Positions 10,998-59,769 of a DNA stretch of 64,000 nt are shown here, piece by piece. The notes under the pieces were generated by a model. It worked only from the letters and a program-made list of their open reading frames with translations. It was not told where the DNA came from and made no database searches. The DNA is from Caryophanales bacterium (GTDB lineage Bacteria > Bacillota > Bacilli > CAJFEE01): NCBI GenBank assembly GCA_029256085.1, contig JAQSYP010000001.1, positions 434,001 to 498,000 on the forward strand. Reading direction: 5' to 3'. The translations under genes were made by a program, and so were the position numbers. Within the stretch, counting starts at the first letter, position 1, and every line of letters starts with the position of its first letter.

Positions 10998-11156
10998 AGA
11001 ACAATGACTTGAGATAAAGTAAAATTTGCTATAAGATTAAATATTGGATAATATTGTATAAAATCACTATATTTCCTTATCCAAAAATTAAAACGGAATT
11101 AATTGGTAATAATAAACAATTAGAGTAACGATTTTCACTGAAAGTGAGTGTTTCAA

Positions 11157-13046
11157 TTGGATTTAACAACAATTGGAGATCCTAGATTTCTAAAAAAATT
11201 AACAAACGAAGAATTAGAGGTACTAGCTAAAGAAATACGTGCCTTTTTAATAAATAAAGTTTCCAAAACGGGTGGTCATATTGCGCCAAACCTTGGTGTT
11301 GTAGAATTAACTATTGCTCTACATAAGGTATTTGACTCTCCACAAGATAAGTTTATTTGGGATGTAGGTCATCAGGCATACGTTCATAAAATACTTACTG
11401 GTAGAGCAAGTCAATTTGATACGCTGAGACAGTATAAAGGGTTAAGTGGCTTCCCAAAAATGGGCGAAAGTGAACATGACGTTTGGGAAACAGGTCATAG
11501 CTCGACTTCTCTTTCTGCTGCAATGGGAATGGCCAGTGCAAGAGACATAAAAGGATCGAAAGAATTTATCGTCCCGATAATTGGTGACGGAGCACTTACT
11601 GGCGGAATGGCATTAGAAGCATTAAACCATATTGGACACGCAAAAACAGAGATGATTGTTATCCTTAATGATAATGAAATGTCTATAGCACCAAATGTTG
11701 GTGCTGTTAATAATATACTCGGAAAATTAAGAACTAATAGTGAATATAGATGGGTAAAAGATGAGCTTGACTATCTACTTAAGAGAATTCCTGCAGTAGG
11801 TGGTAAACTTGCTTTAACTGCTGAAAGAATTAAGGATAGTTTAAAATACTTATTTTTAAATGGGGTATTTTTTGAAGAACTTGGATTTACGTATTTTGGA
11901 CCGGTAGATGGTCATAATTATACAGATCTATTTGAAACACTTGAATACGCTAAAAAATCAAAGGGACCTGTTTTGGTTCATGTTATTACCAAAAAAGGTA
12001 AAGGCTTTAAACCAGCTGAAGAAGATGCAATTGGAACTTGGCATGGTACTGGGCCATATAAGACCGAGTGCGGAACTTTTGTTAAGGAAAAGGCATCTGG
12101 ACCTGCTTGGAGTTCACTTATAAGTGAAACAGTTAGAAAAATTGCCCATGAAGATTCGCGAGTATGTGCTATAACACCAGCGATGTCTGTTGGTTCTAAG
12201 CTTGAATCATTTGCAAAGGATTTTCCAAAAAGATTTTTTGACGTAGGTATTGCTGAGGAGCATGCAGCTACAATGGCAGCAGGGCTTGCTACCCAAGGAT
12301 TAAAACCATTTTTAGCTATATACTCTACTTTTTTACAAAGAGCATACGATCAAGTTCTTCATGATATCGCGAGACAAAATTTAAATGTGTTCATTGGAAT
12401 AGATAGGGCTGGTCTCGTAGGTGCAGATGGTGAAACTCATCAAGGAATATACGATATATCATTTTTAAGACACATACCTAATTTAGTAATAATGATGCCT
12501 AAAGATGAAAACGAAGGCCAACACATGGTTTATACTGCAATAAAGTATGATGATGGTCCAATCGCCTTAAGATTCCCTAGAGGTAACGGTATTGGGGTAC
12601 CTCTTGATAAAGAATATAAAGAGATACCTATCGGAACCTGGGAAGTTATTCGTGAAGGTAAAGATGGAGTTATACTTACTTTTGGGCCAACAATCCAAAT
12701 GGCGCTAGATGCAGCAGAAATTCTAAAAGATAAAGGATTAGAAATTCGAGTTGTTAATGCTCGCTTCATAAAGCCATTAGATTATTTTATGTTAAGTTCA
12801 ATAATGGATGATAACTTACCTATCTTAACTATTGAAGAAGGAATTCTTCAAGGTGGGTTTGGTAGTTTCATTCTAGAATTTGCTTGTGATAATAGGTATG
12901 ATGCTTCAAATATTGACCGATTAGGTATTCCTGATAGATTTATTGAACATGGTGATGTTGATTCGTTACTAGATGAAATCGGATTAACTACTGAACAAGC
13001 TGTTATTAAAATGGAATCATTAATAAATAAAGTGAAAAAGGTTTAA
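11157..13046 (+). CDS. dxs: 1-deoxy-D-xylulose-5-phosphate synthase
   Basis: Dxs condenses pyruvate and glyceraldehyde-3-phosphate with thiamine diphosphate, the first step of the MEP isoprenoid pathway. The 629-residue protein has the N-terminal TPP domain ([33 protein letters not shown]; the GDG...N motif [18 protein letters not shown] ... [10 protein letters not shown]), the central pyrimidine domain ([15 protein letters not shown]) and the C-terminal domain. TTG 11157 gives the usual N-terminus [15 protein letters not shown]; the GTG nine bases upstream lies in the ribosome site AAAGTGAG. tlyA follows after one base. Confidence 0.96.
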
Positions 13047-19086: not shown

Positions 19087-19971
19087 ATGAATATCTTAAA
19101 AAACAGAACCATCAAGGTAGTAGATGTTGGTGCCAGTGGAGGTATTGATATTAGATGGAATTCCATCATAGAACACACTATACCAATACTATTTGAACCA
19201 GACCCAAGAGAATTTAACAATTTAAAAGAGAAATTGCCAGAAAATTATATTGTTTTTAATACCGCTCTATCTGATATTCCTGGATTAATTGAGTTTCATT
19301 TATGTAAAAAACAACAAGTTTCTTCAGTATATAAGCCTAATTATGAGCTAATAAGTAAATTTCCTGCTTCGGAAAGATTTGATGTATTAAAGACAATACA
19401 AGTCCAAGCAGATACACTGGATAATAAATTAGATAGTGTTGGTATTTCAGATGTTGATTTTATAAAGATTGACACTCAAGGTTATGAACTATCGATATTA
19501 CAAGGTGCTAGAAACACTTTAAAATGTGTTATTGGTATTGAGGTAGAAGTTGAGTTTATAGAAATATATGAAAATCAACCTCTATTTGAAGAAGTAAATG
19601 GTTATATTACTGATCTAGGTTTTGAGATGATGGATTTGAAAAGGTATTTCTGGAGAAGAAATGGGAAAGTAAATTACGGATCAAATAAGGGACAACTTAT
19701 TTTTGGTGATGCGTTATACTTTAGGACTCCTGAATCTGTTTGTTCTCTCCCGAATATTGATGAAGATAAAGTGGTTCGTACGGCTATGGTGTATAAATCA
19801 TATGGATACTTTGATTTGATTGAGGAACTTATAAATATTGCTAAAGATAAAAGATTACTTACATTAGAAAATTACAACAAGTTGTATAATTTATGCTTAG
19901 AACACGAAGACAGTGAATTCCCAATTTTGGGAAAAGGCCGAATCCAATCTGATGAAAGTATCGGAAATTAG
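19087..19971 (+). CDS. FkbM family SAM-dependent methyltransferase
   Basis: The 294-residue protein shows the FkbM pattern: SAM motif VVDVGASGGIDIRW (residues 11-24), EPDPREFNNLKEKL (acidic ribose-binding position), the DTLDNKL motif, and FIKIDTQGYELSILQGA. Members methylate sugars, lipids or natural products; the substrate is not predictable here. Its own ribosome site (GAAAGAGGG) and a strong terminator make it a single-gene unit. It stands between spo0A and the GDPD gene where B. subtilis has other genes, which suggests an accessory insertion. Confidence 0.85.
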   Translation: MNILKNRTIKVVDVGASGGIDIRWNSIIEHTIPILFEPDPREFNNLKEKLPENYIVFNTALSDIPGLIEFHLCKKQQVSSVYKPNYELISKFPASERFDVLKTIQVQADTLDNKLDSVGISDVDFIKIDTQGYELSILQGARNTLKCVIGIEVEVEFIEIYENQPLFEEVNGYITDLGFEMMDLKRYFWRRNGKVNYGSNKGQLIFGDALYFRTPESVCSLPNIDEDKVVRTAMVYKSYGYFDLIEELINIAKDKRLLTLENYNKLYNLCLEHEDSEFPILGKGRIQSDESIGN

Positions 19972-21762: not shown

Positions 21763-21788
21763 CTAAAAAGTTAGTAAGTTACATAAAA

Positions 21789-22028
21789 TTAATGTGACTT
21801 ACTTATTTTTTTGCGGAATTTTTTCTTTTTCTCATCTCTTCTTTGGATAAATCCAGCTATAAATAGTGAACCACTAAGTAAAAAAACTGTACCTATTAAA
21901 GCCTGAATACCAACACCAAGCTCAATAAAATATCCAGTATTAAATAAAGAATCTCTCAGTAATTTAACTCCTACAGTTGCTATAATCATTGGTATTACAA
22001 TTACAATAAATGCAACAAATCTACGCAC
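21789..22028 (-). CDS. yqzF: DUF2627 family membrane protein (YqzF type)
   Basis: This 79-residue protein has two hydrophobic helices (about residues 4-22 and 35-58) and a basic C-terminus (RRDEKKKKFRKK). VKLLRDSLFN and GSLFIAGFIQRRDEKK match the Bacillus DUF2627 protein YqzF as I recall it, which also lies before ptb/bcd. Initiation is at GTG 22028 with AAGAGGTGG upstream. Function is unknown. Confidence 0.75.
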   Translation of the reverse strand: MRRFVAFIVIVIPMIIATVGVKLLRDSLFNTGYFIELGVGIQALIGTVFLLSGSLFIAGFIQRRDEKKKKFRKKISKSH

Positions 22029-22213
22029 ACTTCCACCTCTTAATTAATTGAATTTTTAGACTTCTTTGGTTTGGCGATATATTATTTGCAGTAAATAGTC
22101 ATAAAAGTGTAACATTTATGTATCGACTGTTTTAATACACATAAAGCTATTATAAGTTCTTTAAAGAAATAAATAAAATAATTATATTTTTGATTCTGAA
22201 AGGTTGAAGTTGA

Positions 22214-23113
22214 ATGACTAAACTCACACAACTTATAGATTCCGCATCAAGACAACAAAAAAAATATACAGTATCAGTAGCTGCAGCAGATGATTGTCTA
22301 ATATTAGATACAGTTGTTAAAGCAATAGAATTGGATCTTTGCTCGTTTTTATTATATGGAAATGAAGAGTATATTAGGAATTATTTTAATGAATGTAATT
22401 TCACAATAAACGATAATGTAAAAATTCGAAATGCAACTAATAATGATAGAGCGATCGATCTCGCTGTACAATCAATTGTAAAAAGAGAAGCTGATTTACT
22501 TATGAAAGGTAATGTAGATACAGCTGCTATTCTTAAAGTTGCACTAAATAAAGAAAATGGCCTGAAAAATGGAAGCCTCTTATCTCATGTGGCACTATTT
22601 GATGTACCGTCATTAGGTAAATCAATTTTACTGACTGACGCGGCACTCAGCATTACACCGTCTTTAAAAGATAAAATTGAAATTATTAATAATTCAGTCG
22701 CAGTCGCCCATAAAATCGGTATTAAAGAACCTAAGGTAGCTTTACTTTCCGCTATTGAGAAGGTAAATCCTGCGATCGAAGCGACCATGGATGCTGCTGT
22801 TTTAACGCAAATGAATAGGAGAGGACAAATTGTTGGTTGTATTGTCGATGGTCCTCTAGCTTTGGATAATGCGGTATCTAGTAGTTCAGTTGAGCAAAAA
22901 CATATAGAAAGCCCTGTTGCTGGTGATGCAGATATCTTAATTGTCCCTAATATCGAAGTAGGAAATGCACTATATAAATCTTTAGTTTATTTTGCAAATG
23001 CAAGTTTAGGCTCGGTTGTTGTAGGAGCTAAAATCCCAATTATTTTAACATCTAGAGCTGACTCTAGTGAGAATAAATTAAATTCAATTGCTTTAGCCTT
23101 AAATGTAGTTTAG
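22214..23113 (+). CDS. ptb: Phosphate butyryltransferase
   Basis: Ptb converts butyryl-CoA or branched acyl-CoA to acyl phosphate, which Buk then uses to make ATP. The 299-residue protein belongs to the phosphate acetyl/butyryltransferase family (LMKGNVDTAAILKVALNKENGLKNGSLLSHVALFDVP; the conserved IVDGPLALDNAVS and SPVAGDADILIVPNIEVGNALYKSLVYFA). It is the first gene of the branched-chain keto acid cluster. The sigma-54 activator gene bkdR found next to it in B. subtilis is absent, and no sigma-54 type -24/-12 pair with correct spacing is visible upstream. Confidence 0.93.
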   Translation: MTKLTQLIDSASRQQKKYTVSVAAADDCLILDTVVKAIELDLCSFLLYGNEEYIRNYFNECNFTINDNVKIRNATNNDRAIDLAVQSIVKREADLLMKGNVDTAAILKVALNKENGLKNGSLLSHVALFDVPSLGKSILLTDAALSITPSLKDKIEIINNSVAVAHKIGIKEPKVALLSAIEKVNPAIEATMDAAVLTQMNRRGQIVGCIVDGPLALDNAVSSSSVEQKHIESPVAGDADILIVPNIEVGNALYKSLVYFANASLGSVVVGAKIPIILTSRADSSENKLNSIALALNVV

Positions 23114-23156
23114 ATAGTTAGAGAGAGAGTAGAGAGATTTACAAGGGGGAGTCACA

Positions 23157-24254
23157 ATGGAGTTATTTGAAAATTTGCAAATGTACAATCATGAACAGTT
23201 AGTTTTTTGTCAAGATGAGGCCTCTGGTCTAAAGGCAATTATTTCTATTCATGATACTACTCTTGGACCAGCCTTAGGTGGTGCGAGAATGTGGTCTTAT
23301 CAGACAGAAGAAGCAGCAATTGAAGATGCATTAAGGTTATCAAGGGGAATGACTTATAAAAATGCTGCTGCTGGTTTAAATCTAGGTGGAGGAAAGACTG
23401 TAATTATTGGTGATGCTCGTAAAGACAAAAATGAAGCGATGTTTCGTGCTCTAGGTAGATTTATCCAAGGGTTAAATGGTAGGTATATAACTGCAGAGGA
23501 TGTAGGGACTACTTGCGCAGATATGGATTTAATTTATCAAGAGACAAAGTTTGTAACAGGAACATCTCCTGGATTCGGATCGTCAGGAAATCCGTCACCG
23601 GCTACGGCGTATGGAGTTTATCGCGGAATAAAGGCTGCAGCTAAAGAAGCATACGGGTATGATAACTTAGAGGGAAAAGTTATTGCAGTTCAAGGTGTTG
23701 GTAATGTTGCATTTAATCTGTTACGACACTTACATGCAGAAGGGGCTAAGCTTATTGTTACCGATATTCATAAGGAATCAGTTTTAAGAGCAGTCCAAGA
23801 ATTTGATGCTCTAGCAATTGAACCGAATGATATCTATGATGTTGATTGCGATATTTATTCGCCGTGTGCATTAGGTGCAACTATAAACGATGATACAATA
23901 TATAAATTGAAAGCTAAAATTATAGCTGGTGCAGCAAATAATCAACTTAAAGATAATAAACATGGTGATTTATTACATGAACTTGGAATTATCTATGCTC
24001 CTGATTATGTTATCAATGCAGGTGGCGTAATTAACGTTGCTGACGAGCTTAATGGATATAACCAAGAAAGAGCATATAAAAAGATTGAATCAATTTATGA
24101 TAATATTGAAAAGGTATTCAGTATATCTAAACGTGATAATATCCCAACATATAAAGCTGCGGATAGATTAGCAGAAGAAAGAATCAGTACTATAAGTAAA
24201 TCAAGAAGTCAGTTCTTAATTAGCGAACGTAACATTTTAAGTAATAGAGTTTAA
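23157..24254 (+). CDS. bcd: Branched-chain amino acid (leucine) dehydrogenase
   Basis: Bcd deaminates Leu, Ile and Val to 2-keto acids with NAD. The 365 residues contain [46 protein letters not shown] (catalytic Lys in GGGKTV), the dinucleotide-binding motif [16 protein letters not shown] and the conserved [18 protein letters not shown]. The gene follows ptb by 43 bases and AAGGGGGAG precedes the ATG. A terminator lies directly after it. Confidence 0.97.
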
Positions 24255-24263
24255 CAATTTTTA

Positions 24264-24293
24264 AAAGATGGAGATCACTACTCCATCTTTCTT
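24264..24293 (+). terminator. Intrinsic terminator after bcd
   Basis: AAAGATGGAG and CTCCATCTTT form a perfect 10-bp stem with a seven-base loop, followed by CTT. It separates ptb-bcd from buk-lpdV, which are one operon in B. subtilis. Confidence 0.75.
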
Positions 24294-24372
24294 GCATATA
24301 AAGAATTTATAAGTTGAAAGACTGATTTAAAGTTGGTTTGAGCGTATTCCGACTTATATCTAGAAGTAAGCA

Positions 24373-24482
24373 TAAACGCTCGACTCCAGCGGGAACAGCA
24401 CGAGCCGAAAATCCATTTTTGCAAGTTTAACTTGCAAAAATTAGTTGAGGCCGTGCCCGCGGAAAGCGAGCGTATATGCGAA
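24373..24482 (-). repeat. Interspersed quasi-palindromic repeat, family 1, copy 3 (reverse)
   Basis: The family 1 core is in reverse orientation (CTCCAGCGGGAACAGCACGA ... GTGCCCGCGGAAAGCGAGCG). The locus-specific outer arms GCATAAACGCTCG and CGAGCGTATATGC are inverted copies with one mismatch. It is inserted between bcd and buk. Confidence 0.85.
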
Positions 24483-24504
24483 AGTCTGCCAAATTTATTT
24501 TACT

Positions 24505-24590
24505 ATGGATTAAAAAATTTACACTTTGGATCAAAAAACTTATTTTCGGATTAAAAAACTTATATTTCGGATTAAAAAATATTTTTTTTG
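24505..24590 (+). repeat. Tandem array, four units of about 21 bp
   Basis: Four degenerate units of the type GGATTAAAAAACTTATATTTC lie end to end, directly upstream of buk. They are not a CRISPR array, because the units abut without spacers. Confidence 0.75.
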
Positions 24591-24609
24591 CTTAAAGAGG
24601 GGCAGCTAC

Positions 24610-25683
24610 ATGGATAAAACATTTATACTCACTATAAATCCTGGTAGTACTTCAACTAAGATTGGACTTTTTAAATTAGACAAGCTTATTTGGGAAGAAA
24701 CTATTAGGCATTCTACTGAAGAATTATCAATATTTAGCACTATACTTGAACAACTTGATTTTAGAAAAAGAGCAATTCTAAGTTCTTTAGACAATAATAA
24801 CTTTCAACTTAACAATCTTATAGCTGTATGTGGCCGAGGTGGTTTGCTAAAGCCTATTTCAGGTGGTACTTATGAAGTTAATGATGCTATGCTTGTAGAC
24901 TTAAAGAGTTGTAAATATGGCGCTCATGCATCTAATTTAGGAGCAATTTTGGCATTTGATATTGCATCAGAACTTAATATAAAAAGTTTTATCGTAGATC
25001 CTGTTGTTGTAGATGAATTAGCTGAAGTTGCCACATATTCAGGAATTCCTTCTATAAAACGGAAGAGCATCTTTCATGCACTAAACCAAAAGGCAGTCGC
25101 GAGAAAATATGCAAACGAAACTAATACAATTTATGAAAACCTTAATTTAATTGTTGCACATTTAGGTGGAGGAATTACTGTAGGGGCTCATAAATTAGGT
25201 AAAGTTGTTGATGTAAATAACGGATTAGATGGTGAGGGTCCTTTTTCGCCTGAACGTGCTGGAACAATACCGGCTGGTGACTTAGTTGAGCTATGTTTTT
25301 CTAATGATTATACCAAAGATGAAATAAAAAAAATGCTGACAGGTAATGGTGGACTTGTTGCATACTTTAATTCAAATAATACTCAAGTTATAGAGGACCT
25401 ATCAACGAAGGGGAATGACGTAGCTTTAGTTGTTTTACAAGCAATGTGTTATCAAATATCTAAATCAATTGCATCATGTGCAGTACCATTATCTGGAAAA
25501 GTTGACGCAATAATCTTGACAGGTGGTATTTCACATTCTAAATTTATAACATCTGAAATTATTAAACATGTAGATTGGATTAGCACCGTTAAAATATATC
25601 CTGGTGAAGAGGAATTAGAATCTCTGGCACAAGGAGTAATTCGTGTATTAAACGGTGTTGAAACAATAAAGACATATTCCTAG
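24610..25683 (+). CDS. buk: Butyrate kinase
   Basis: Buk forms ATP and a (branched-chain) fatty acid from the acyl phosphate made by Ptb. The 357-residue protein starts MDKTFILTINPGSTSTKIGLF, typical of acetokinase-family enzymes, and contains FHALNQKAVARKYA, LIVAHLGGGITVGAH and VDVNNGLDGEGPFSPERAG. The start at 24610 is preferred over an in-frame upstream codon (24526), because the added 28 residues are encoded by the tandem array and GAGGGGCAG precedes 24610. Confidence 0.95.
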   Translation: MDKTFILTINPGSTSTKIGLFKLDKLIWEETIRHSTEELSIFSTILEQLDFRKRAILSSLDNNNFQLNNLIAVCGRGGLLKPISGGTYEVNDAMLVDLKSCKYGAHASNLGAILAFDIASELNIKSFIVDPVVVDELAEVATYSGIPSIKRKSIFHALNQKAVARKYANETNTIYENLNLIVAHLGGGITVGAHKLGKVVDVNNGLDGEGPFSPERAGTIPAGDLVELCFSNDYTKDEIKKMLTGNGGLVAYFNSNNTQVIEDLSTKGNDVALVVLQAMCYQISKSIASCAVPLSGKVDAIILTGGISHSKFITSEIIKHVDWISTVKIYPGEEELESLAQGVIRVLNGVETIKTYS

Positions 25684-25706
25684 TAATAAATAAGGGAGAG
25701 GTTATT

Positions 25707-27116
25707 GTGGCTGAATTATTTGATATTGTAATAATAGGTGGAGGCACGGGAGGATATGTAGCTGCACTAAGAGCTTCTCAACTTGGTCATTCTGTAGCAC
25801 TTATTGAAAAAAATGAAGTTGGAGGAACATGCCTTCATAAAGGATGCATCCCAACTAAAGCTTTACTTAGAAGTGCTGAAATATATCGTGAAGTAAAAAA
25901 AGGCAATGAATTTGGAATTGAAATTAATGGTTATTCATTAAATTATGGTAAAACAGTTGCAAGAAAAAATAAAGTCGTATCACAGTTACAAAAAGGTGTT
26001 GAATTCTTATTAAAAAAAGGAAAAATCAACGTCATTAGAGGTTCAGCATCTATTGGGGAAAAAATAGGTGATAAGTACACAGTACATATTGCTTCAACTA
26101 ACGAAGAAAAACATGTTTTGTGTAAAAAAATAATAATAGCTACTGGATCGGTTCCAAGATCGCTACCGGGAATTAATTTTGATAGTCAAAATATATTAAG
26201 CTCTGACGACATGTTATCACTTTCTGTACTGCCTAAGTCGATTATAATTGTTGGTGGCGGTGTTATTGGAGTAGAATTCGCCTCATTACTTCATGACTTT
26301 GACGTAGAAGTTGCAATCATTGAAGCAGCGGAGCGTATCGCGCCATTAGAGGACAAAGACATATCTATGGAGCTACAAAGAATCTTTAAGAAAAAAGGCA
26401 TTAAATTTTATACTAATGCAAAACTTTTAGTTGATAAAGTTATAAGTAATGATGAGACAGTAAGCATTGAGTTTGATTATAATGGATCATTAAAAGAAAT
26501 TACGGCAGAAAAGCTTCTAATGTCGGTTGGTCGAACACCAAACACTTCTAATCTAGGTCTTGAAAATACATTAGTAGAAATTGAACGCGGTTTTATTAAG
26601 GTGGATAATAACTATCAAACTAATAATCCTGATATTTATGCTATAGGAGACGTTATAGGTGGACTTCAACTAGCCCATGTTGCCTCACATGAAGGAGTGG
26701 TGGCAGTAGAACATATTTCTGGGATTGCTAGTCATGGGATTAAAGAGGAGCATGTGCCGAAGTGTATATATAGTCATCCAGAAATCGCATCAGTCGGATT
26801 GACGGAACAGGAATGTATATCAAAAGGAATTAATTATAAGAATAGTAAATTTAGTTTCAGAGCAATTGGTAAAGCATTAGTACACGGAGATGTTGATGGT
26901 TTTGTTAAAGTCATAATTGATGTGGAATCGGGAGCACTACTAGGTGTTCATATGATTGGGCCTCATGTAACTGACTTAATCTCTGAAGCTGCTCTTGCAA
27001 CAGTGCTCGAAGCTACAGCAATGCAGATAGGCAATACGATTCATCCACACCCATCACTTTCTGAAGCCTTTATGGAGGCTGGGCTTGCTGTGCACGGTCG
27101 AGCATTTCATATGTAA
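25707..27116 (+). CDS. lpdV: Dihydrolipoyl dehydrogenase (branched-chain keto acid dehydrogenase E3)
   Basis: E3 reoxidises the lipoyl groups of 2-oxo acid dehydrogenase complexes using FAD and NAD. The 469 residues show the FAD motif DIVIIGGGTGGYVAALRA, the redox disulfide GGTCLHKGCIPTKALLRSAE, the NAD motif IIIVGGGVIGVEFASLL, and the C-terminal catalytic HPHPSLSEAFMEA. Position after buk matches LpdV of the B. subtilis bkd operon, but the E1 alpha, E1 beta and E2 genes that should follow are missing here. Confidence 0.94.
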   Translation: MAELFDIVIIGGGTGGYVAALRASQLGHSVALIEKNEVGGTCLHKGCIPTKALLRSAEIYREVKKGNEFGIEINGYSLNYGKTVARKNKVVSQLQKGVEFLLKKGKINVIRGSASIGEKIGDKYTVHIASTNEEKHVLCKKIIIATGSVPRSLPGINFDSQNILSSDDMLSLSVLPKSIIIVGGGVIGVEFASLLHDFDVEVAIIEAAERIAPLEDKDISMELQRIFKKKGIKFYTNAKLLVDKVISNDETVSIEFDYNGSLKEITAEKLLMSVGRTPNTSNLGLENTLVEIERGFIKVDNNYQTNNPDIYAIGDVIGGLQLAHVASHEGVVAVEHISGIASHGIKEEHVPKCIYSHPEIASVGLTEQECISKGINYKNSKFSFRAIGKALVHGDVDGFVKVIIDVESGALLGVHMIGPHVTDLISEAALATVLEATAMQIGNTIHPHPSLSEAFMEAGLAVHGRAFHM

Positions 27117-27128
27117 ATTTAATTCTGT

Positions 27129-27158
27129 ACTACTACAACTTTTTGTAGTAGTTTTTTT
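27129..27158 (+). terminator. Intrinsic terminator of buk-lpdV
   Basis: ACTACTACAA and TTGTAGTAGT form a perfect 10-bp stem with a short loop, followed by seven T. Confidence 0.85.
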
Positions 27159-27204
27159 ATTTGCTCATACAAATGTATTAGGCATTTGTTTGGGAGGATA
27201 AAAA

Positions 27205-28797
27205 ATGGATTTTACTAATTTAAGCACTAGGTGTAATAACTTAATTTCTTTTCAAGATAATCTAATTAATTCTGTAAACAGCAAGAACGCAATGATTAAT
27301 TTACATCCCGTCTCAAAATTAAATAAATCTATTAAGGATGTTTCTGGAGAATACTGTAACTACGATGGGGAGATAGTAGAAAGTTATAGTGAACTTACAA
27401 AACTACTTGAAGATTATAAGAACTATAAAAATATTATTATTAATGGTGGTTATGAAAGTAATCATTACTACGATTGGTTATGTAGATACTATAGTAGTAA
27501 TAAATTAAAAGTAAACGTAGCTGTATTAACTGACCCCATTTCAGTAGCACTTGAATGGAGAGAGATTCCATATTCACTTTCAAGAGCATTGACCTCACTA
27601 TCAAGCTTGCTCTCTAAGGTAAAAATTAAAGGTGACAACACGAAAATTATTAAACTAGATGCATCACTCATTTATGATAGTGGTGGCGATGTGGCTACGG
27701 AAATATGTTATATTCTATCATTAGCAAACCAATATATCACGCTTTTAAGAGATAAGGGTCACTTAGTGAATGACATCTTTAATAGTTTTTGCATCCTAAT
27801 AAATTCTGACGAAAAAAGTTTATATAAGATCGAATTATTTCTTGAGTGTTGGAAGAAACTAGAGTACTTTTGGGGGATTAATACTGATACTAATCCACTT
27901 ATTATATTGAAAATGGTTAAAGATAGGATGAAAAGTGAATTTAATAATGAGCGAGAAATAATTGATTGTAGAACTATATCTAAACTAATAAAAAATAATA
28001 TTTACATAAATATTAATGGGCAAAAGCTCAAATGTACGTGTGAGTATAACCACTCAGGGTTAGATCAGAAAAGATTAAACGTAAATAATATTTTTAATCA
28101 ATTTTTAAGTTGGGAAGAAAAAGGAGGTCTTCTTAACATAATAAGAAACGACTTTCTCGCAAATAAAGTTAAGTATACGAGAAATCGGAATATAAAGGAT
28201 GTTTTAAATCAAGATTTGCAAGTTACTCAAAAAGCTATTTCAAATGTAGTCTTAAAGGAAGTGGGGTTTGAGTACTTTTATAATAAATTAACAACCTTGA
28301 TTAGCGAAAAAAATGAATTTATTTACCCTGAAGAAGATATTTATGAGTATTTGAACACTAATATTTATAGAAGACTCTCAAGATTTAGCTTCTTCCATAG
28401 CTTTGATGAGTTTACATTGGATTATTATACAAAAGTTAGGGAAAAATATAATGTTGCTATTATTTATGATGAAAAAGATCCACTAAGTCATCATCAAAGT
28501 TTAATTTTATCAAGGATACAAAAACTGTGCCAAATAGATATAAAGATTTGCAGTATTAATTCGGTAGATTTAAAAGGTTTTAATTACATTTTTGTTTGTA
28601 GTGGCAATAATGAAGTAGATAGCCTAATTGATAATATTTTAGAACTTAACGTACAAGCCCCAATATATTTATACGGGCGCATTGACGATCACGAGGTCTT
28701 TGGAAAAATTGCTAAATATTTTACTGGATATATTTCTGATGATGCTGAAATTGAGGAGTTAGTTGCAGTTTTAAGACTAATTTTTAATATTTATTAA
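27205..28797 (+). CDS. Diverged methylmalonyl-CoA mutase small-subunit-like protein
   Basis: This intact 530-residue frame resembles MutA (over 600 residues) in several ordered blocks: YDSGGDVATEICYILSLANQ at about 157-176 (like the conserved H-aGa-a-qELa-ala block), LFLECWKKLEYFWGI near 211-225 (like fRa-R-LW), FLSWEEKGGLLNIIRNDF followed by KYTRNRNIKDVLNQD near 299-334, and a C-terminal cobalamin-domain-like fold from about 440. The middle block with TS, the DP-N-LR-T pattern and the GGADSI stretch is not recognisable, which explains the shortening. No mutB follows. It starts after TGGGAGG with ATG 27205. Inference: a relic or repurposed MutA; catalytic activity is unlikely. Confidence 0.6.
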   Translation: MDFTNLSTRCNNLISFQDNLINSVNSKNAMINLHPVSKLNKSIKDVSGEYCNYDGEIVESYSELTKLLEDYKNYKNIIINGGYESNHYYDWLCRYYSSNKLKVNVAVLTDPISVALEWREIPYSLSRALTSLSSLLSKVKIKGDNTKIIKLDASLIYDSGGDVATEICYILSLANQYITLLRDKGHLVNDIFNSFCILINSDEKSLYKIELFLECWKKLEYFWGINTDTNPLIILKMVKDRMKSEFNNEREIIDCRTISKLIKNNIYININGQKLKCTCEYNHSGLDQKRLNVNNIFNQFLSWEEKGGLLNIIRNDFLANKVKYTRNRNIKDVLNQDLQVTQKAISNVVLKEVGFEYFYNKLTTLISEKNEFIYPEEDIYEYLNTNIYRRLSRFSFFHSFDEFTLDYYTKVREKYNVAIIYDEKDPLSHHQSLILSRIQKLCQIDIKICSINSVDLKGFNYIFVCSGNNEVDSLIDNILELNVQAPIYLYGRIDDHEVFGKIAKYFTGYISDDAEIEELVAVLRLIFNIY

Positions 28798-28870: not shown

Positions 28871-29308
28871 ATGAATATTGATTATAATTTCTATATGAAC
28901 GATATTATAGAAACGGCTCGTAGAGAAATTGTAGATTCAGGTTTCAAAGAACTTAGAACTGTTGAAGAAGTAGACAATGAACTATCCCAAAAGGGTACAA
29001 CATTAGTTTTTATTAATTCAGTTTGTGGATGTGCGGGTGGAACTGCTAGACCAGCTGCTGGGGCATCTTTACACTTTGATTATAGACCAGATAATTTAGT
29101 TACCGTTTTTGCAGGTCAAGATAAGGAAGCTACAGCAAGAGCAAGGGAATACTTTGAAGGCTTTAAACCATCGTCTCCATCATTTGCCATACTTAAGGAT
29201 GGAAAGATATTAGGAATGGTTGAGAGAAATGACATCGAAGGATTTTCTACTGTTGAAGTTGTGAATAAATTACAATCACTTTTTGAAAAGTATTGTGATG
29301 AAATTTAA
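28871..29308 (+). CDS. brxB: Bacilliredoxin BrxB-like (YqiW/YphP family)
   Basis: Bacilliredoxins remove bacillithiol from S-bacillithiolated proteins under oxidative stress. The 145-residue protein has the C-G-C active site in [20 protein letters not shown] (about residues 50-69), followed by [19 protein letters not shown] and [14 protein letters not shown], matching YqiW/YphP in length and sequence. It lies next to the bkd region, as in B. subtilis. Confidence 0.93.
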
Positions 29309-58083: not shown

Positions 58084-59769
58084 ATGTTTAAATATAGTCT
58101 ACAAAATAATGAGACTAAGCATCTATGGATAGCATCATTTCTATTAGCTTTATATGTTTCTCCATTGTTCATATTAGGGGAAAATGCCCATTTAAGAATA
58201 CACGATAACTTAGATTCAAACATTGCTTGGTATAAAACTTTGAAAAATAGTGGGCAGCTATTTGGAAACATCGATGCAGTTATACCTCAAGTTATTAACG
58301 GATTGCCAAGAAACGCATACGGTACAGAGTTTAGTGGAATTCAGTGGTTACATGCAACTTTTCCTTCGATGGTTGCTTATGCGATAAGTCAGACTGTTAC
58401 TAGAGTGGTTGCGTTCATAGGGATGTATATACTTTTGAAAACCCATTTTATAGTTTCTAAAGACCACTATTTAATTAGAGTTTGGGTGTCATTAACTTTT
58501 GCACTCACACCTTTTTGGCCATCGGGAATGCTAAGTACCTTAGGAATGCCATTAGCATTATGGGGATTTTTAAATATTCGATCGAGAAATAGTACCTGGC
58601 GTGAATGGATAGTCCTAATCTTATTGCCGTTCTATTCAAGTTTTGTTTTAGGATTCTTTTTCTTCTTAGTAGCCATGGGATTACTGTGGTTAACAGATTT
58701 AATTTCTAAAAAGAGGTTTAACTGGCTCTTTTTAAGTAGCATTATTCTTATGACGTTTACATATTTGCTTATTGAATATCGTTTAGTGTATTCTCTAGTC
58801 TTTCCTGAGGCACCAACGAGTAGAAATGAATTTGAGAGCTCCTATTTAAGTCTATGGCGTACAATTCGTTTAGCCTTTAAAAATTATATTAGAGGACATA
58901 CTCATGTAGAAACATTACACGCACTAGTAATAATTCCTATATCTTTTATTGCGTTATGGGCGATAAGAGGCAAAAAAAAGGAAGGAATAGAAAAAAGATA
59001 TCCAATGTTATTCATTTTAAATATTACATTATCAGTTTGGTATGCCTTCTGGTTTTTTAAAGGTTGGGGTCCATTAAAAGATAAGATACATTTACTTAAT
59101 ACTTTTAACTTTGCAAGATTCCACTTCCTAAGACCTTTAGTAATATACTTAATTTTTGCTATAGGATGCTACATAATTTGGAATAAGGGTAAAGGCTGGC
59201 AGAAATTTATAAAAATTTGTTTTGGTATTCAAGTAGTAATTATGTTCATTGCTAACGAAGAAATCGTTAATCGAGGGTTACGTTATCCTTCTTTTAAACA
59301 ATTTTACGCAACTACACAATTTCAAGATATAGATCAATTTATAGGTTTGCCAAAAAGTAGTTACAGAGTTGTAAGTATTGGTCTTCATCCGGCTATAGCA
59401 CAATATAATGGTTTTTATACTTTAGACACTTACAATAATTTCTACCCACTAACTTATAAACATCAATTTAGAATGATTATTGCCCCTGAATTAAAGAAAA
59501 ACCGTGTATTAAGAAAGTATTTCGATAAGTGGGGTGGAAGATGCTATATTTTTGTAGATGAATTAGGTAAGAAACCTAGAGTTCAGAAAAATAAAAACAA
59601 AGTAATTAAAAATCTTGATATAAATACTGAGGCATTAAAGGAAATGGGTGGAAGGTACATATTTTCAGCAGTGCCTATATTAAATGCTAAAAGTAATAAT
59701 CTAATCTTATTAAAAGAATTTGAGGACAGTACATCTGCGTGGAGAGTTTATCTTTACGAAGTAAAATAA
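58084..59769 (+). CDS. Polytopic membrane protein, DUF6044/YkoS-like (probable GT-C glycosyltransferase)
   Basis: The 561-residue protein has about ten or more membrane helices and a C-terminal soluble part of about 140 residues. Its first external loop contains LRIHDNLDSNIAWYK, an acidic motif in the place where GT-C enzymes carry their catalytic Asp. It resembles B. subtilis YkoS, which is paired with glycosyltransferase YkoT. By analogy with YfhO/CsbB, it would transfer a lipid-linked sugar to a cell-surface polymer. It starts the operon with the following GT2 and GtrA genes. Confidence 0.75.
   Translation: MFKYSLQNNETKHLWIASFLLALYVSPLFILGENAHLRIHDNLDSNIAWYKTLKNSGQLFGNIDAVIPQVINGLPRNAYGTEFSGIQWLHATFPSMVAYAISQTVTRVVAFIGMYILLKTHFIVSKDHYLIRVWVSLTFALTPFWPSGMLSTLGMPLALWGFLNIRSRNSTWREWIVLILLPFYSSFVLGFFFFLVAMGLLWLTDLISKKRFNWLFLSSIILMTFTYLLIEYRLVYSLVFPEAPTSRNEFESSYLSLWRTIRLAFKNYIRGHTHVETLHALVIIPISFIALWAIRGKKKEGIEKRYPMLFILNITLSVWYAFWFFKGWGPLKDKIHLLNTFNFARFHFLRPLVIYLIFAIGCYIIWNKGKGWQKFIKICFGIQVVIMFIANEEIVNRGLRYPSFKQFYATTQFQDIDQFIGLPKSSYRVVSIGLHPAIAQYNGFYTLDTYNNFYPLTYKHQFRMIIAPELKKNRVLRKYFDKWGGRCYIFVDELGKKPRVQKNKNKVIKNLDINTEALKEMGGRYIFSAVPILNAKSNNLILLKEFEDSTSAWRVYLYEVK

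Follow-up and report, generated by a model that had tools for sequence, protein, structure and literature searches.

An orphan MutA orthologue in the mutA slot of a Caryophanales bacterium, probably re-used as a stand-alone non-catalytic protein

Enzyme subunits without catalytic activity tend to disappear along with their partners. The window analysed here, a stretch of 64,000 nucleotides from a Caryophanales bacterium, holds an uninterrupted frame that resembles MutA, the small, non-catalytic subunit of methylmalonyl-CoA mutase, and no mutB follows it. This raises the question of what the gene, here called P0001, has become and what keeps it in frame. The gene and its surroundings comprise the following features.

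22214-27116, plus strand: ptb-bcd-buk-lpdV, upstream half of the branched-chain cluster, still in place (profile matches, synteny).
27129-27161, plus strand: intrinsic-terminator-like hairpin 3' of lpdV, between the bcd-buk-lpdV transcript and P0001 (fold z=-4.0).
27191-27198, plus strand: ribosome-binding site of P0001, GGGAGG (from the sequence; GGAGG 7 nt 5' of the ATG).
27205-28797, plus strand: orphan MutA-derived gene P0001 (open frame, PF01642, MutA HMM, AF2 model).
28871-29308, plus strand: brxB (bacilliredoxin), downstream anchor of the mutA-mutB-meaB slot (TIGR04191; after meaB in relatives).

In relatives the gene order is ptb-bcd-buk-lpdV-bkdAA-bkdAB-bkdB-mutA-mutB-meaB-brxB. The window has lpdV, P0001 and brxB in succession, with bkdAA-bkdAB-bkdB gone on one side and mutB and meaB on the other, and P0001 sits in the mutA slot, between lpdV/bkdB and brxB. 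We gathered 80 named Bacilli loci by a search on bcd, among which there is no congener of the genome carrying P0001; all 79 that extend past bcd contained bkdAA-bkdAB-bkdB, with mutA next in 31. Additionally, mutB directly followed mutA in each of the named Bacilli loci with a full-length MutA that were used in the alignment (28/28). After P0001 the next gene is brxB, which starts 74 bp downstream, in agreement with a sequence-only reading of this DNA that had reported no mutB behind the frame. In the one sister-family genome examined everything between spo0A and brxB was lost, the P0001 gene included, and the gene is thus dispensable in the family. Further upstream in the window, a gene for an FkbM-family methyltransferase (19087-19971) lies between spo0A and glpQ, and the interval from glpQ to ptb (21763-22213) has too little room for the regulator bkdR; it holds a small minus-strand frame that by eye resembles a YqzF/DUF2627 protein.

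The P0001 frame runs through 530 codons (530 aa) with zero internal stops, and together with its Shine-Dalgarno-like GGAGG this agrees with the earlier description of a frame without stops and with a good ribosome site. The same reading had made P0001 the end of the branched-chain cluster, which holds for the adjacency to lpdV but probably not for a common transcript. The hairpin at 27129-27152 with its T run has an MFE of -12.4 kcal/mol against a shuffle mean of -4.4 (z -4.0), and because of this terminator-like structure P0001 is probably transcribed separately from the branched-chain cluster, probably from a promoter of its own. No convincing sigma-70 promoter was found for P0001, promoter-like sites being no commoner than in shuffles. 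An Rfam scan at gathering scores detected no RNA, and thus no recognised cobalamin riboswitch.

Based on a Pfam search, P0001 matches MM_CoA_mutase (PF01642) alone (residues 101-198, E=5.1e-6), with 25.7 bits against a superfamily cut-off of 22.1, which is passed; the match spans 98 of the 512 profile positions. The MutA equivalog TIGR00642 gave 20.5 bits and its cut-off of 617 was not passed, but this cut-off is uninformative for Bacilli, being passed by 0 of 399 Bacilli genomes, normal mutAB carriers included. With a MutA HMM from 19 relatives, three collinear blocks were recovered (residues 51-200, 298-334 and 454-497), and the blocks that had been picked out from the sequence alone do align with MutA in order. 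An HMM from 50 sequences scored P0001 at 36.9 bits, compared to 7.1 for the best reported shuffle (2000 made, 1087 with a reported score) and 7.0 for the best other ORF of the window; as these controls score far lower, chance similarity was rejected. The alignment of P0001 to the MutA profile by hhalign had a probability of 95% in local mode (residues 16-234 to MutA columns 104-312) and 97% in global mode, at an identity to MutA of 11-16%. In contrast, a MutB HMM built here did not match P0001; a MutB remnant was rejected on this ground and because MutA chains came out best in the fold search described below. P0001 is MutA by descent and the positional MutA orthologue, which bears out and sharpens the MutA-like label of the sequence-only reading, and the profile search that it had proposed as a check gave a significant MutA match with the MutB HMM silent. 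Among the 399 Bacilli genomes the one carrying P0001 stands alone in having so weak a sole mutase-family match; for the sole match that comes next in weakness the E is ~1e-22. No close relative of P0001 was found in 60 relatives searched, where a single marginal match (E 9e-4) lay in a frame with stops and was judged to be chance, nor in the genome contig collection. The MutA alignment had no matches in the viral contig collection, and the literature searched gave no account of an orphan MutA.

An AF2 model of P0001 had a pLDDT of 66 and a pTM of 0.61; the alignment behind it included 28 named Bacilli MutAs, which biases the model towards MutA. When this model was searched with Foldseek, MutA chains took the first seven places among the PDB matches (E 1.7e-13 to 3.5e-12), with MutB and IcmF ranking lower, so that the structure prediction also proposed earlier, here from a MutA alignment, points to MutA as well. 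Without an alignment the pLDDT was 39, yet the order of helices and strands was similar. Viral structures matched by the model were mostly receiver-type Rossmann domains. The layout of the protein is as follows.

27250-27906, plus strand: first half of the MutA TIM barrel, residues 16-234 (hhalign 95%; pLDDT ~63-95 over residues 61-240; codon signal 0.22 over 101-234).
27907-28092, plus strand: collapsed central region, residues 235-296 (gap pattern; pLDDT ~30 over 241-290; codon signal 0.05).
28093-28209, plus strand: FLSWEEKGG block, residues 297-335, equivalent to MutA WxLFxxIExxGG (HMM domain 2, profile 395-431; pLDDT 77-93 over 291-330).
28381-28794, plus strand: C-terminal Rossmann-like (B12-domain-like) domain, residues 393-530 (weak hhalign; pLDDT 66-85 over 401-530; codon signal).

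The C-terminal domain is of the B12-type Rossmann kind without the DxHxxG motif, as in MutA, according to sequence, a weak profile match (hhalign, residues 458-526 to MutA columns 589-662) and the model, and the cobalamin-domain-like C-terminus described before was thereby recovered. P0001 shares with MutA (TIGR00642/PF01642; Propionibacterium 1REQ chain B, M. tuberculosis 6OXD chain B) the chromosomal slot, the block order, the first half-barrel, the GG-helix, the C-terminal Rossmann domain and the lack of a B12 motif, but differs in having no MutB partner, no N-terminal arm and no SRIARN/DPAGGSYYVE region. It is also shorter, with 530 aa compared to 614-693 aa in named relatives and ~549-567 aa in the shortest intact MutAs of other relatives. 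The catalytic mutases MutB and IcmF share the superfamily fold with the model (Foldseek E 9e-10 to ~1e-3), whereas P0001 lacks a MutB HMM match, a B12 motif and a complete barrel.

The N-terminal arm and the second barrel half are lost. In the centre, residues 235-296 provide 62 aa where MutA has ~93 columns, a length that seems insufficient for the second barrel half; SRIARN and DPAGGSYYVE are deleted or unrecognisable there, and the pLDDT is <50. This gap in the alignments bears out the earlier remark that the central substrate-domain block is missing. At the other end, the N-terminal arm, which in MutA wraps the large subunit, is absent, the hhalign match starting at MutA column 104 (74 in global mode). 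P0001 keeps 22 of the 126 MutA positions that are conserved to at least 85%, against a permutation null with mean 4.8 and maximum 15, a comparison that gives an aligned sequence an advantage over permuted ones. Among the other positions 34 are deleted, including SRIARN, DPAGGSYYVE and parts of the N-terminal arm. MutAs with a MutB partner keep 95-126 of these positions, while in P0001 104 of the 126 are changed or deleted. Even the fast-diverging MutAs of Priestia aryabhattai (L079) and P. koreensis (L140), which like P0001 sit in the mutA slot, keep 95-97 and have mutB next to them. P0001 is, in short, a MutA by descent without the features that define a working one, namely the partner, the whole barrel and the arm.

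Whether such a frame is decaying or retained was addressed by calculation. At this base composition 530 random codons would all be open with a probability of 10^-22. Under neutral drift one stop is expected in P0001 per ~0.01 substitutions per site, the probability of no stop being 0.36 at d=0.01, 0.13 at 0.02, 0.045 at 0.03 and 3e-5 at 0.1, whereas a neutral route to the present identity with MutA would need ~1 substitution per site. The frame has therefore been protected by selection through almost all of its divergence. The sequence-only reading had left a choice between a new role and very slow decay; the second was rejected, as a stop would have appeared with ~95% probability by 0.03 neutral substitutions per site, and a new structural or regulatory role is suggested by the retained frame and a patchy codon constraint. 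It had also held that P0001 is not a fresh pseudogene; by the stop-codon calculation P0001 is not an old one. Residues 101-234 (0.22), 393-530 (0.19) and 401-530 (0.24) had an in-frame codon signal in the normal to low-normal range, compared to 0.30 +/- 0.09 in other genes of the window, whereas hardly any was seen in residues 1-100 (0.02) and 235-296 (0.05). GC by codon position was significant in the C-terminal domain only (p=2e-4). Constraint in P0001 looks concentrated in two modules, which are those with MutA similarity or a confident model. Elsewhere in the window, several segments of a 561-aa frame at 58084-59769 had an in-frame codon signal that was unusually weak. When own-to-others distances were divided by those among the others, MutA had a ratio of 2.45, lpdV of 2.35, buk of 2.93 and bcd of 1.59; MutA is generally a fast family, and on these saturated MutA distances the acceleration of P0001 is not above that of lpdV or buk, so that we do not claim a special acceleration after the loss of the partner.

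The main rival is a gene that died recently, MutA having been kept in frame with MutB until a recent deletion of mutB and no stops having been gathered yet. At d=0.01 to 0.02 a recent loss would be invisible, early decay would also account for the low codon signal of the N-terminal and central parts, and the whole segment is missing from the sister-family genome. However, the protein has already lost its arm and part of the barrel, and the 104 conserved positions changed or deleted stand against at least 95 kept in partnered MutAs; such remodelling is not expected with MutB present, and it proceeded without any stop arising. We consider a recent death rather unlikely.

The genome (2.63 Mb, 17 contigs) is rated 100% complete, and a genome-wide PF01642 search returned no protein besides P0001, thus no mutB and no icmF. 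A mutB hidden elsewhere was rejected on the same search, which likewise revealed no complete mutAB pair, in line with the orphan status proposed at the outset. That P0001 still serves as partner subunit of an unrecognised B12-dependent mutase or other enzyme is very unlikely: two other proteins with B12-binding domains are encoded in the genome, but both are radical-SAM types, no other PF01642 protein exists and genome-wide MeaB matches were all below the family cut-off. One B12-binding/radical SAM protein (L159:2378-4144) belongs to the TIGR04190 family, well above cut-off. Most improbable, and largely refuted, is an unrelated TIM-barrel/Rossmann protein or an inserted foreign mutase paralogue, which the low identity to MutA would allow but which the three collinear MutA blocks, the exclusion of chance by shuffles, the exact mutA slot and the MutA chains as best fold matches contradict.

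Our preferred explanation is that P0001 is a MutA orthologue that persisted after the loss of its catalytic partner and was probably re-used as a stand-alone non-catalytic protein, a case that rests on one genome. The lineage deleted mutB, meaB and the BKD complex and kept the MutA-derived gene in its slot, with its own ribosome-binding site behind the terminator and as the only mutase relative in the genome. The protein lost the N-terminal arm and the second barrel half, whereas its first half-barrel, its GG-helix block and its C-terminal Rossmann domain were kept, the calculation above indicating selection on the reading frame during practically all of this divergence. With MutB missing, the barrel incomplete and the B12 motif absent, P0001 would work neither as a mutase nor as a normal MutA partner. 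Its product may be kept as a binding or scaffold protein, with the function residing in the two modules that are still coding-like (residues ~16-234 and 393-530). Among specific roles the most plausible, which we regard as doubtful, would be the binding of a CoA thioester or of a protein partner from the remaining branched-chain acid pathway.

That pathway would consist of Bcd, then a ferredoxin-dependent VOR, then Ptb-Buk. The ptb, bcd, buk and lpdV genes are intact although BKD E1 alpha and E2 were not found in the genome. The genome-wide search for a 2-oxoacid dehydrogenase E2 found none, and that for E1 alpha no real one, the single weak match being a 632-aa frame at 11148-13046 that we take, from gene order, to be DXS. 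The genome encodes four POR_N-type oxidoreductases, one of them VorB above cut-off (L156:2681-3745), which makes it probable that branched-chain 2-oxoacids are oxidised with ferredoxin before Ptb-Buk and that this VorB-type enzyme replaces BKD. The lpdV gene (25707-27116) encodes the only close dihydrolipoyl dehydrogenase of this genome without an E2; GcvH is present (L160), and lpdV may serve the glycine cleavage system, which would explain its retention.

With the non-catalytic half alone kept, in place and in frame, it could be asked directly what such a subunit is able to do by itself. We see about an even chance that it survived the loss of its partner, shed the partner-binding arm and half of the barrel, and now acts on its own, under selection for a new function in branched-chain acid metabolism of the ferredoxin-linked kind. 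That ptb, bcd, buk and lpdV persist without BKD, and with a VOR-type oxidoreductase encoded elsewhere, gives a clear example of an aerobic-type pathway that was apparently re-fitted for ferredoxin-linked metabolism.
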